The notes under the pieces: model-generated
What the model was told of the DNA's origin: nothing
The model's database searches: none
The model's input: the letters and a program-made list of their open reading frames with translations, nothing else
DNA from: Nocardiopsis eucommiae
Lineage (GTDB): Bacteria > Actinomycetota > Actinomycetes > Streptosporangiales > Streptosporangiaceae
NCBI GenBank assembly: GCA_018388625.1
Contig: CP074402.1
Location: 4,216,001 to 4,280,000, forward strand
Length of the DNA: 64,000 nucleotides
Reading direction: 5' to 3'
In this document: piece after piece, positions 42,419-47,135 of the stretch
Layout: each line of letters starts with the position of its first letter
Numbering within the stretch: the stretch's first letter is position 1
Program-made: the position numbers and the translations under genes

Positions 42419-44907
42419 TCATCCGCCCCGGATGTCGGTGAGCACGGCCGCGAGTTCGTCGGGCTGCACGAGCACGTCGCGCGCCTTGGAACCCTCGCTG
42501 GGGCCGACGACGTCGCGGCTCTCCATGAGGTCCATCAGGCGACCGGCCTTGGCGAACCCGACCCTGAGCTTGCGCTGGAGCATCGACGTGGATCCGAACT
42601 GGGTGGTGACGACCAGCTCGACCGCCTGGAGCAGCAGGTCCATGTCGTCGCCGATGTCCTCGTCGATCTCCTTCTTCTTGGTGTCGACGACCGCGACGTC
42701 CTCGCGGTAGCTGGGCTCGGACTGCTTCTTGCAGTGGTCGACGATCCCCCGGATCTCCTTCTCCGCCACCCAGGCGTTCTGGAGGCGGATGGGCTTGCCC
42801 GCGCCCATCGGGAGGAAGAGCGAGTCGCCCTTGCCGACCAGCTTCTCCGCGCCGGGCTGGTCGAGGATGACGCGGCTGTCGGCGAGGCTGGAGGTGGCGA
42901 AGGCCAGCCGCGAGGGGACGTTGGCCTTGATCAGGCCGGTGACGACGTCGACGCTGGGGCGCTGGGTGGCCAGGACCAGGTGGATGCCCGCGGCGCGGGC
43001 CAGCTGGGTGATGCGCACGACCGCGTCCTCGACGTCGCGGGGGCGACCATCATGAGGTCGGCCAGCTCGTCGACGATCACCAGCAGGTAGGGGTAGGGCT
43101 CGTAGACCCGTTCGCTGCCCAGCGGGGCCGTGAGCTCCCCGGTGCGCACGGCGGCGTTGAAGTCGTCGACGTGCCGGTATCCGGAGGCCGCGAGGTCGTC
43201 GTACCGCCGGTCCATCTCCCCCACCACCCACTGGAGGGCCTCGGCGGCCTTCTTGGGGTTGGTGATGATGGGCGTGATCAGGTGCGGGATGCCCTCGTAC
43301 ATGGTCAGCTCGACCCGCTTGGGGTCGACCAGGATCATGCGCACCTCGTCGGGGGTGGCGCGCATCATCAACGAGGTGATGAGTCCGTTGATGCAGGTGG
43401 ACTTACCCGCGCCGGTGGCACCGGCGACCAGCACGTGCGGCATCTTGGCGAGGTTGGCGACGACGTTGCTGCCCTCGACGTCCTTGCCCAGACCCACCAG
43501 CATGGGGTGGTCGTCCGAGGTGGCGGCCGAGGAGCGCAGGACGTCGCCCAGGCTCACTATGTCCTTGTCCGTGTTGGGGATCTCCACGCCGATCGCGGAC
43601 TTGCCGGGGATCGGCGACTGGATACGTACGTCGGCGCTCTTCACCGCGAGCGAGATGTTCTTGGAGAGCGCCGTGACCTTCTCGACCTTCACCGCGGGGC
43701 CGAGCTCGATCTCGTAGCGGGTGACCGTAGGGCCCCGGGTGAACCCGGTGACCTCGGCGTCGATCTTGAACTGGTCCAGGACCCCGCTCAGGGCCGCGAC
43801 GACGTCGTCGTTGGCCTGTGTGCGGGGCTTGACCGGCGTGCCCGGCTTGAGCATGGTCGGCGCGGGAAGCTCGTAGTCGCCCTCGACCACGCGGGAGGGG
43901 ATGGAGAGCTGCTCGGTGGTGACCGGCGGCGGCGTGGGGTCGGGGGTCGGGGCCTTGGCCTTCTTGCGGGCGGGCTTCTTCGCCGCCGAGGCCTCCGCCT
44001 CCTCCTCGTCGGTGAGAGCGGGGGCGATCGACGCGGCCTCGGGCTCACTGGGCAGGACCGGGCTGTCGTAGGGGCGCTCGTGGTCCCCGGCGACGGTCTG
44101 GGCCTCAGCGGTCTGGGCCTTCGGCTTGCGCTTGCGCGGCTTGGCGGGCTTCTCCGGGTCCGCGCCGAGGAGGCCGATCCCGGAGTCGGGGCCGGTGTCG
44201 CGCTCCATCAGGGCGCCGAAGAGGGTCTGGAGCCGGTCCGGGATGCGGCGGATGGGGGTGGCGGTCACCACGAGGATGCCGAAGATCAGGATCAGGGCCA
44301 GCAGGAGCCCGGTGAGCCAGGGGGTGACCACCGCGCTGAGCGGGCCGGAGGCGACGAAGCCGATGACGCCGCCCGCCTCCTGGAGCCCCTCGATACCGTC
44401 GGCGGGCTGCGGGATGCCGTGGGCGATGTGGATGAGCCCGAGGAGGCCGAGCATGATCGAGGTGACCCCGATGAACAACCGCCCCGCGTCGCCCTCCTTG
44501 CTCGTGCTCGGGGTGCGCATCAGCTTGACCGCGATCGGCAGGAAGAGGAGGGGAAGGATCGGCGAGAAGGTGCCGAAGCCCCCGACCACCACGAAGCGGG
44601 TGGCCTCCAGCAGCGGGCCGTCGCTCTGCCACCACACGGCGGAGGCGACCAGGATGCCCAGGGCCAGCAGGATCAGCCCCGCCCCGTCGCGCCGCAGGTC
44701 GGGGTCGAGGCCGCGGGCGCTGCGTCCGACCGCGCGGGCCGCCCCGCCCACCGTGTGCGCGACGAGCTTCCACATCACCAGCAGGAACTGACCGAAGAGC
44801 GTGACCACGTACGCGATGGGCCCGTCGGGCATGCGCTTCTTCGCCGCCGGTCTGCGCGCTGCGGGCTTCTTGCGCCCAGCACCGCCTGAGGAGGCACGCG
44901 TGGCCAT
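42419..44907 (-). CDS. ftsK: DNA translocase FtsK (one apparent frameshift)
   Basis: Septal DNA pump, about 829 residues. ATG at 44907. Basic N-terminus, four membrane helices (residues about 35-230), an acidic/Lys-Pro linker, then the RecA-like motor: [20 protein letters not shown], Walker [16 protein letters not shown] near 448, [18 protein letters not shown], and Walker [14 protein letters not shown] near 610. The C-terminal gamma domain that reads KOPS-type signals is present ([20 protein letters not shown]). One base is missing at the G run 43039-43043 ([16 protein letters not shown]). Confidence 0.95.
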
Positions 44908-45031
44908 CGGGGGTCACCTCCACCGGGGACGGGGTCGATTCCGAGGTGCGGGCACAGCGACCCGGCACGGCGGGAAGCCTACTAAGCCGTCCAGCCCGGA
45001 GCACCCAGGGGGCACGGCGTGTTCTCTGTTT

Positions 45032-45391
45032 TCTTTGGGCCTCCGCTTCGCTTCGGCCCGGGTTCGGCGCCTTTGCAGAGGGATTCTTCATCCTCGTCCA
45101 CGCCTGGCTCGTTCCTCGCTGGCGGCTTGACTCGTCTTGCAGAACCCTCTCCGGCGCTCGAACGGGGCACCCCCGGTGGCCAAGGCGGACAGGCGGGACT
45201 CACGCCCACCCACAGTCGTGAGTCCCGCTCAGGGCCCAAGGCCACGGGGGTGCTTTCGTTCGGGCGCCGGCAGGGTTCTGGAGGTGCCGCAGGTGGGATC
45301 GCGAGGAACGAGCCATCACACCGCAGGCGCCGAAGGTTCCTGCCTTTCCAGGCGCCCGAACACGCATCGAAGCGAAGCGGAGATGCAAAGA
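45032..45391. repeat. Long imperfect inverted repeat with covarying hairpins (unassigned element)
   Basis: Two copies of one module face each other around 45205-45216 in the rnj-ftsK gap. Matching blocks, left/right: TCTTTG 45032-45037/45386-45391; TCCGCTTCGCTTCG 45042-45055/45368-45381; GTTCGG-CGCCT 45062-45072/45350-45361; TGGCTCGTTCCTCGC 45105-45119/45301-45315; CAGAACCCT 45140-45148/45272-45280; CCGGCGCYCGAACG 45151-45164/45257-45270; GCACCCCCG 45167-45175/45245-45253; GCGGGACTCACG 45193-45204/45217-45228. Blocks four and five are 20 bases apart in both copies although those 20 bases differ. The loop TCCGCTTCGCTTC is closed by GGGCC/GGCCC on the left and GCATC/GATGC on the right, a compensatory change. 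No transposase or coding frame seen. Function unknown. Confidence 0.85.
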
Positions 45392-45399
45392 GATAAGGA

Positions 45400-45431
45400 A
45401 CGGCCCGGGAACGCGGACGTTCCCGGGCCGT
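45400..45431 (-). terminator. Terminator after rnj
   Basis: ACGGCCCGGGAACG (45400-45413) and CGTTCCCGGGCCGT (45418-45431) form a perfect 14-base stem with a CGGA loop, 20 bases beyond the rnj stop. Confidence 0.85.
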
Positions 45432-45450
45432 GTCCCTGCTTCCCCTACGG

Positions 45451-47135
45451 TCAGACCTCGACCAGGACGGGGATGATCATGGGACGTCGACGGTAGGTCT
45501 CGTTGACCCAGCGTCCCGTGCTGCGGCGGATGAGCTGACGCAGCTGGTGCGGGTCGTTGACCCCGTCGGCGGCCGCCTTGTCCAGGGCGTCCTGGATCTT
45601 GTCGATCACGTCGTCGTAGGCCGCGGCGCCCATGCCCGCGCCCCGGGTGTGGATCTCGGGGTCCCCGAGGATCTTCCCGGAGTTGGAGTCCACCGCGACG
45701 ACGACGGAGATGAAGCCCTCCTCGCCCAGGATGCGGCGGTCCTTCAGGGCGGCGTCGGTGACGTCCCCGACCGAGGAGCCGTCCACGTAGACGTACCCGG
45801 CCTGCACCGCGCCGACGATCTTGGCGCGGTTCTTGTACACGTCCACGACCACGCCGTCCTCGGCGATGACGACGCGGTCGCTCGGCACGCCCGTGAGCTT
45901 GGCCAGGTCGGCGTGGGCGCGCATGTGCCGCCACTCGCCGTGCACCGGCATGAAGTTGCGCGGACGCACCATGTTGAGCACGTACAGCAGCTCACCGGCG
46001 GAGGCGTGGCCGGACACGTGCACGAGCGCGTTGCCCTTGTGCACGACCTTGGCACCCCAGCGGGTCAGGCCGTTGATGACCCGGTTGACCGAGTTCTCGT
46101 TGCCCGGGATGAGCGACGAGGCGAGCAGGATGGTGTCGCCCTCCTCGATGCGGATCTGGTGGTCCCGGTTGGCCATACGGCTCAGCGCCGCCATGGGCTC
46201 GCCCTGGGAACCGGTGCAGATCAGCACGACCTCGTCGGCGGGCATCTTGTCGAGCTGCTTGACGTCGACGATGGTGTCGCCGGGGATGCTCAGGTAGCCC
46301 AGGTCGCGTGCGATGTTCATGTTGCGGACCATGGAGCGGCCCACGAACGCGATCTTGCGGCCGTGCGCGGTCGCGGAGTCGATGACCTGCTGGACGCGGT
46401 GCACGTGCGAGGCGAAGCAGGCCACCACGATGCGCTTCTTCGCCTGCCGGAACACCTTGTCGATGGCCTCGGTGAGGTTGCGCTCGTTGACCACGAACCC
46501 GGGCTGCTCGGCGTTGGTGGAGTCCGACAGCAGGATGTCCACGCCCTCGTCACCGAAGCGGGCGAACCCGGCCAGGTCGGTGAGGCGGCTGTCCAGCGGC
46601 AGCTGGTCCATCTTGAAGTCGCCCGTGTGGAGTACCGTGCCGCCGGGCGTGCGGATGCCCACGGCGAGTGCGTCCGGAATCGAGTGGTTGACCGCGAAGA
46701 ACTCCAGGTCGAAGGGGCCGAAGTCGTGGCGCTCCCCTCCTCCACCAGGACGGTCTCCGGCTTGATCCGGTGCTCGCCGAGCTTGGCGCTGATCAGCGCC
46801 AGGGTGAGCTTGGAACCCACGATCGGGATGTCGGCCCGCTCGCGCAGCAGGAACGGCACGCCGCCGATGTGGTCCTCGTGCCCGTGGGTGAGCACGATCG
46901 CCTCGATGTCGTCGAGACGGTCCCGGATGTAGTCGAAGTCCGGCAGGATCAGGTCGACGCCGGGCTGCTCCTCCTCCGGGAAGAGCACACCGCAGTCGAC
47001 GATGAGCAGACGGCCGTCGTACTCGAAGACGGTCATGTTGCGGCCGATCTCACCGAGACCGCCGAGCGGGACGATGCGCAGGACACCCTTGCCCTGGGGC
47101 GGGGGCGGGCCGAGTTCGGGGTGCGGGTGACTCAT
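45451..47135 (-). CDS. rnj: Ribonuclease J (one apparent frameshift)
   Basis: Metallo-beta-lactamase-fold 5' exo/endoribonuclease for RNA maturation and decay, about 561 residues, the standard length. ATG at 47135 overlaps the dapA stop (ATGA). Zn motif THGHEDHIGG near residue 80, then HTGDFKMDQLP, SDSTNAEQPGF, CTGSQGEPMAALSRMA and HVSGHAS of the beta-CASP domain, with the C-terminal domain after residue 450. One base is missing at the C run 46734-46737 (VLVEEGERHDFGPFDLEFF). Confidence 0.95.

Follow-up and report, generated by a model that had tools for sequence, protein, structure and literature searches.

Extragenic palindromic repeats of the REP/BIME type often lie near the 3' ends of genes, occur as subtypes in inverted pairs or clusters, and serve as a strand-specific folded substrate (PMC8266576, PMC3733652). 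The phyla named for REP/RAYT in one of these accounts do not include Actinobacteria (PMC3733652), and another gives three Actinomycetota genomes with generically predicted REPs (PMC12306157). In the RepRanger data, 446 of 4,072 E. coli REPs lie within 15 nt of a stop codon (PMC12306157). Here we analyze a palindromic region of Nocardiopsis in the window, the whole 64,000-nt stretch of DNA under study, whose numbering is used for positions. Window positions 45026-45396 are two diverged, inverted copies (subtype A on the plus strand, subtype B on the minus strand) of one non-coding module of about 130-150 bp. Each module comprises a T-rich leader, a small hairpin (hairpin I) with a fixed loop and a changeable stem, and a rod of about 100 nt whose stems covary and whose apical loop is fixed. 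The module has spread within genomes, its leader end often directly after the 3' end of a gene. Our preferred reading, in which we place moderate confidence, is that two copies of a non-autonomous mobile repeat are combined in the region, and that this repeat is recognized as a folded single strand and put behind gene ends by an enzyme.

The region separates the rnj 3' end from the ftsK 5' end, with both genes on the minus strand, and the flanking open reading frames hold RNase J and FtsK domains (Pfam). The coding sequences of ftsK (42419-44907) and rnj (45451-47135) are each split into two overlapping frames, with the Pfam domains divided between ORFs, which is suggestive of either frameshifts introduced by sequencing or pseudogenes; the listed completeness of the genome is 84%. 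Copy B stands about 53 nt behind the rnj stop, after the terminator-like hairpin of rnj, and copy A faces the ftsK start (Table 1). The initial annotation of this DNA had described two inverted copies of one module, which is borne out, the two halves being subtypes A and B of a family. An inverted-repeat search recovered the outer arms (45032-45067/45356-45391; 36 nt, 81%), a central pair (45193-45204/45217-45228), and the perfect 15-of-15 block that had been pointed out at 45105-45119/45301-45315. The outer hairpins, described earlier as the same loop on different stems, can be read directly in the sequence: the 13-nt loop TCCGCTTCGCTTC is common to both, and the 5-bp stems differ (GGGCC/GGCCC versus GCATC/GATGC). 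The diverged segments reported between matching blocks are also present and correspond to the differences between subtypes A and B.

Table 1. Features of the two modules between rnj and ftsK
Feature	Position	Strand	Evidence
Module copy A (subtype A): leader, hairpin I, long rod, ACCCCC right end	45026-45174	+	Repeat-family matches; 98.5% identity over about 130 bp to the copy at C1:4604517
T-rich leader, copy A: CTGTTTTCTTT; usual form in the family GTGTTTGCTTT	45026-45036	+	Aligned left ends
Hairpin I, copy A: GGGCC / loop TCCGCTTCGCTTC / GGCCC	45037-45059	+	Sequence, inverted-repeat search, consensus fold, loop count
Rod, copy A: stem II TTCGGCGCC/GGCGCTCGAA (45063-45071/45153-45162), stem III AGAGGG/CCCTCT (45077-45082/45145-45150)	45063-45162	+	Consensus fold of 30 subtype-A copies; single-sequence folds
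Apical loop CTCGTTCCTCGC, copy A	45108-45119	+	Conserved in A and B; slightly altered in other genera
Module copy B (subtype B), leader at right end, behind rnj terminator-like hairpin	45246-45396	-	HMM and covariance-model matches (C1:4261257-4261389)
Hairpin I, copy B: stem GCATC/GATGC, loop as in copy A	45364-45386	-	Sequence, inverted-repeat search, loop count
Rod, copy B: stem II GTTCGGGCGCC/GGCGCCCGAAC (45258-45268/45351-45361), stem III (45270-45274/45339-45343), stems IV and V inside	45258-45361	-	Consensus fold, covariation analysis, single-sequence fold
Apical loop, copy B, as in copy A	45301-45312	-	Inverted-repeat search, covariation analysis
Inverted tail between modules, GCGGGACTCACG/CGTGAGTCCCGC, like the 32-bp tandem unit behind some other copies	45193-45228	.	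Inverted-repeat search, tandem-repeat comparison

Copies, arrangement and distribution of the family

A blastn search with positions 45000-45420 returned 47 pieces in the same genome (G000), from a nearly full-length match at 88% to parts holding a single module, and 18 further repeat regions were fetched from it. Sequence search matched the repeat in 37 of 40 Nocardiopsis genomes, with none in G010, G014, and G039; a covariance model also matched 37 of the 40, but here the genomes lacking a match were G010, G019, and G039. Hits are not confined to this locus, and copies in 37 genomes rule out a chance palindrome or an assembly artefact; that the palindrome is not due to chance follows from the dispersed copies together with the covariation described below. 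No match was found in plasmid and phage records, which rules out a plasmid or phage element. The window gave no match above gathering score to 4,227 Rfam families, only 10 weak ones below it (E at least 0.087, mostly over the rnj terminator), so that a known Rfam RNA is ruled out. The family is apparently undescribed; no description of this repeat was found in the open-access PMC text.

Modules occur singly, in direct tandem, or as inverted pairs, and seven of them stand in direct tandem in G021 with a period of about 134. Among 30 pairs of neighboring copies with both ends present, 25 are direct and five are inverted; all five inverted pairs join an A with a B copy, leaders outward. The subtypes differ in the inner rod, and most aligned modules have a leader, mostly GTGTTTG-like, at one end and ACCCC at the other. 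Some copies bear tails of 32-bp tandem repeats, seen by eye at several loci and by TRF on two. Such tails lie behind modules at L015:2968-3070 and L042:1725-1850, and the unit sequences differ between these two species. The 221 HMM hits divide into 150 full copies, 24 that keep the leader end, 40 that keep the other end, and seven internal ones; many of the 40 belong to genera in which the HMM fails to align hairpin I. By eye, truncation at one end had at first looked like convincing evidence of retro-type movement, but this full count does not bear it out.

At E<=0.01, covariance model R1 has matches in 50 of the 298 family genomes searched, which belong to 7 of 68 genera: 37 of the 40 Nocardiopsis genomes match, as do 13 of the 258 from elsewhere in the family. 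E-values here are rough, the large searches ran with stricter filters, and some marginal matches may be chance. In the eleven of the 13 genomes outside the genus that were inspected, nearly every match is full-length, and a single genome has up to 36 of them (G156); their stems diverge widely and their apical loop hardly varies. A class-wide draw gave matches at E<=0.001 in 15 of 394 genomes. One of these, G623, lies outside the family and has two matches, including C1:3203272-3203390, which reflect either horizontal transfer or chance. Furthermore, a 39-position subtype-B pattern found 75 stretches in 84,980 species genomes, labeled Nocardiopsis, 'Glycomyces fuscus' TRM 49117, or Nocardiopsaceae bacterium YIM 96095; the second of these record names looks misassigned, its counterpart G011 being placed in Nocardiopsis. 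The loop pattern CTCCGCTTCGCTTCRG has 21, 14, 11, 14, and 11 matches in G000, G021, G012, G037, and G002, respectively, and none in G009, G010, G014, and G039; the reversed control gave none. The 21 exact hairpin-loop matches of G000 all fall in two stretches of the 6.0-Mb contig C1, 0.82-1.54 Mb and 4.26-5.90 Mb, and the 2.7 Mb between them hold a single weaker copy, at 2.01 Mb.

Fold, covariation and strand

The fold was analyzed on alignments of B copies (A1, 26 of 27) and A copies (A2, 30 of 49; 37 after removal of near-duplicates, with seven odd ones omitted by hand). Alignments A3 and A5 omit four further B copies (L016, L022, L035, and L053), and A4 and A6 two further A copies (L010 and L016), some of which pair less well. 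RNAalifold gave 31 pairs for the 26 B copies, 12 of them with double changes, and 29 pairs for the 30 A copies, eight with double changes. In A5 (22 trimmed B copies, bottom strand, named structure of 39 modelled pairs), 97.1% of cells pair against 89.3% in shuffled alignments, 15 pairs show double changes against 8.0, in 59 cells against 12.7, and the covariation score is 0.243 against 0.091; none of 500 shuffles reaches any observed value, a count that is not a probability since the copies are related. Sliding the A5 structure by 1-3 columns, a control that keeps the relatedness although the structure is partly derived from the same sequences, leaves at most 43.8% of cells paired. Hairpin I and stem III are 100% paired in A5 across several stem types. 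With all 26 B copies kept, standard pairs fill 961 of 1,011 cells (95.1%) on the bottom strand and 931 (92.1%) on the top strand. Selection on folded structure, which the initial annotation had proposed from three compensatory changes, is thus strongly supported by covarying stems in both A and B copies, and the alignments show the excess covariation that it predicted among homologs.

The bottom strand folds better than the top strand. Consensus energies (alifold) are -66.1 versus -51.7 for B and -33.6 versus -20.0 for A, bottom against top. Relative to shuffles, the RNA fold z values of bottom and top strands are -2.97 and -0.78 for copy A and -3.92 and -3.16 for copy B; as DNA they are -2.10 and -1.01 for copy A and -3.87 and -2.70 for copy B. 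With no base imposed, hairpin I with a 2-bp inner stem fits 158 of 174 leader-bearing copies. Its inner loop on the bottom strand reads GAA in 101 of these, GCA in 22, GGA in 16, GCCA in eight, GCTA in three, and otherwise in eight, that is, GNA (139) or GNNA (11) in 150 of 158. Hairpins of the form d(GCGNAGC) are unusually stable in DNA, and mini-hairpins of this type have been used in published work. Taken together, predicted folding would lean toward a single-stranded form of the bottom strand, either RNA or DNA.

Covariation together with fixed loops would likewise be in keeping with a functional RNA, and the initial annotation had listed a structured RNA family among its candidates. One version of this idea, which we judge unlikely although not negligibly so, holds that the family consists of mobile structured RNA genes, whose bottom strand is transcribed and whose RNA is selected as a trans-acting molecule, a guide, or a retro-type intermediate. 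The selected fold agrees with it, as does the purine-rich character of the loops when the bottom strand is read. In A1, pairs 72-116 and 73-115 are mostly mismatches on the top strand and form by G-U or Watson-Crick pairing on the bottom strand only. Departures from standard pairs in bottom-strand alifold structures are G-U rather than A-C (19:4 for B, 23:2 for A, and 15:6 for a fixed B structure), as in RNase P of the same genus (60:14), whereas top-strand structures give 6:8 for B and 3:10 for A. These bottom-only pairs and G-U departures lean to RNA. On structures predicted without G-U, however, the bottom strand shows little asymmetry (10 G-U to 7 A-C for B and 2:1 for A, against 16:4 for RNase P on its own strand), which leans against RNA, on few pairs. 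Depending on the pair set, such structures gave 1-19 G-T against 2-14 A-C for the element, with only 7-11 pairs from 97 B-like copies, which makes the comparison a weak one, and RNase P on the other two pair sets gave 2:5 and 2:4. The lack of an Rfam match, the GCCA and GCTA loops (11 of 158), which are not GNRA, and the lack of a sigma-70-like promoter in 44900-45500 also speak against RNA genes. The same holds for the enzymes: RVT_1 (PF00078) is undetected in the five high-copy genomes G000, G002, G012, G021, and G037, and TnpB in G000 and G021.

Insertion sites and the search for a mover

Copies at unrelated loci of G000 are identical at 129 of 130 positions, and their flanks are unrelated. 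Loci between rnj and ftsK were fetched from 30 of 40 genomes searched; four of them hold the repeat (the own genome G000, G012, G020, and G021), and 26 have no HMM hit. Ten further occupied sites were queried, and seven were compared with counterparts lacking the repeat. Five of these seven lie behind a gene whose stop codon keeps its position with or without the repeat, the letters sometimes differing (at L062, TAG with the repeat and TAA without). The native spacer of about 6-40 nt is usually replaced, which is untidy for a plain insertion, and no target duplication is visible by eye at the seven sites. At two sites one copy is common to a pair of species (G012/G037 and G000/G021), which shows that some insertions are old. 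These comparisons indicate that the repeat is mobile, in agreement with one candidate of the initial annotation, a mobile palindromic repeat. Another candidate, a protein-binding array tied to ftsK, is not supported, since copies adjoin many different genes.

The position of the copies was counted on 164 of the 221 hits, leaving out those with no leader end or with less than 400 nt upstream. The stop codon of a composition-checked ORF lies 0-4 nt before the leader in 58 of the 164 ends, compared with 0-2 at 12 slid positions. The stops before leaders are 37 TAG, 21 TGA, and no TAA, against 175 TAG, 350 TGA, and 23 TAA in the background ORFs of the fetched loci. The stop and the leader are frequently separated by GC or AC and one further base, which means that the module's true left end may extend up to the stop codon. 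By eye, copies in other genera (L283, L308, and L309) also start behind a stop codon. The remaining 106 ends include the leader ends of both window copies; 33 of the 106 have motifs from a further copy in the 230 nt upstream, 73 have neither feature, and some of the 106 stand behind terminator-like hairpins or tail repeats (by eye). In three species, copies follow the same tRNA-Leu (anticodon TAA) gene (L018 in G000, L043 in G037, and L272 in N. prasina).

Tight spacing after stop codons could also mean that the repeat is a cis-acting gene-end device, with a benefit that explains its position: the upstream transcript would carry hairpin I about 11-15 nt after the stop and thereby end transcription, protect the mRNA, or stall ribosomes. 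Ribosome stalling has been reported for E. coli REPs located up to 15 nt from a stop codon (PMC12306157). At the rnj-ftsK site of G020 (L076), the copy lies 2 nt behind the rnj stop and the terminator-like hairpin of relatives is gone; in the window, a terminator-like site predicted at 45006-45028 takes the copy A leader as its T tail. Against such a device, the T-rich tract precedes rather than follows hairpin I, some copies stand behind a terminator-like hairpin or the tRNA-Leu gene, the bottom strand folds better, and both the spread and the conserved loops are left unexplained. We consider it very improbable.

Three enzyme families were searched for in the 40 genus genomes. Y1_Tnp (PF01797) was found in 13 and is missing from G000, G002, G021, and G037, RVT_1 was found in 12, and TnpB (PF07282) in 33. 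All three are undetected in the repeat-matching genomes G000, G004, G005, G021, G032, and G033; G000 is about 84% complete, and its absences alone are weak. Given these six carriers, Y1/RAYT, RT, and TnpB are rejected as necessary movers: none of them is needed at present, or they were lost after the repeat had spread. G020 and G009, both poor in the repeat, contain series of RT matches of equal score and ORF length (490 aa and 566 aa, respectively) that resemble bursts of group II introns.

The repeat might instead derive from a known insertion sequence as a MITE, moved in trans by an ordinary transposase. The module is short, non-coding, and dispersed, the right flanks of L053, L057, L068, and L072 contain a stretch similar to CACAAAACAG, possibly a leader in inverted orientation, and the 32-bp tails have a parallel in a minisatellite recorded inside a MITE (PMC4596501). 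Opposed to it are the lack of target duplications at the seven sites and the lack of plasmid or phage matches; on a search of three enzyme families, we regard this origin as no more than improbable.

On our preferred reading, the module would be recognized in folded single-stranded form, most likely as the bottom strand, with hairpin I near the 3' end of that strand. A putative enzyme would then place it after stop codons and in some cases after terminator-like hairpins or a tRNA gene. Selection on recognition would preserve the fold, holding the loops constant and allowing a stem to vary as long as its two sides vary together, and inverted A/B pairs such as that in the window would represent BIME-like composites. 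The replaced native spacer, the lack of a visible duplication, the lack of a mover among Y1, RT, and TnpB, the poorer pairing of the four B copies omitted from A5, and the 106 of 164 ends that are not 0-4 nt behind a checked stop all count against this model. A stricter form, which we hold only tentatively and think rather doubtful, takes the folded single strand as the only identity of a mobile element targeted to gene ends (stop codons, terminator-like hairpins, and a tRNA 3' end), with an enzyme outside the HUH, reverse-transcriptase, and TnpB classes.

Significance and comparison with known systems

The family offers a compact natural case in which selection acts visibly on the fold of a spreading DNA, with stems double-changed and loops frozen, and it reveals in actinomycete intergenic DNA a family of structured repeats that is missing from Rfam. 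For a bacterial mobile element, so close a position after stop codons is unusual, and it may point to transcript ends or some other cue guiding insertion. Among the carriers are named type strains, such as Nocardiopsis prasina DSM 43845 and N. alba DSM 43377, which makes direct tests of the mover, the strand, and the gene-end effect possible.

Several known systems share part of this picture. Mycobacterial MIRU sit at junctions of stop and start codons, and the repeat resembles them and MITEs in being short, non-autonomous, intergenic, and dispersed; it differs from MITEs in lacking a visible target duplication and in having a strong covarying fold, and clear terminal inverted repeats are not established. 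Palindromic elements derived from IS200/IS605 have subterminal hairpins recognized as a single strand and make no target duplication, but neither TnpA nor TnpB was detected in G000 or G021. The attC site of integrons is a folded bottom-strand site directly behind a stop codon; by eye, however, its end boxes RYYYAAC...GTTRRRY are absent from the repeat in that polarity, and the order of neighbors at the compared sites is the same whether or not the repeat is there. Group IIC introns insert behind terminators, whereas RVT_1 is missing from the five high-copy genomes and the repeat has no Rfam match.

The repeat also resembles REP/BIME in being extragenic and folded, with subtypes in inverted pairs and clusters outside genes and at gene ends. 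Closeness to stop codons is common in kind to E. coli REPs and the repeat, and tighter in the latter. However, a REP is a hairpin of 20-50 nt with a GTAG/CGTC tag in front, whereas the repeat is a multi-helix rod module of about 130-150 nt in which the tag is absent; and REP/BIME has TnpA_REP (RAYT), whereas Y1_Tnp is undetected in 27 of the 40 genus genomes. The repeat thus works like a large REP/BIME, yet fails the definition of a REP on size, tag, and RAYT.
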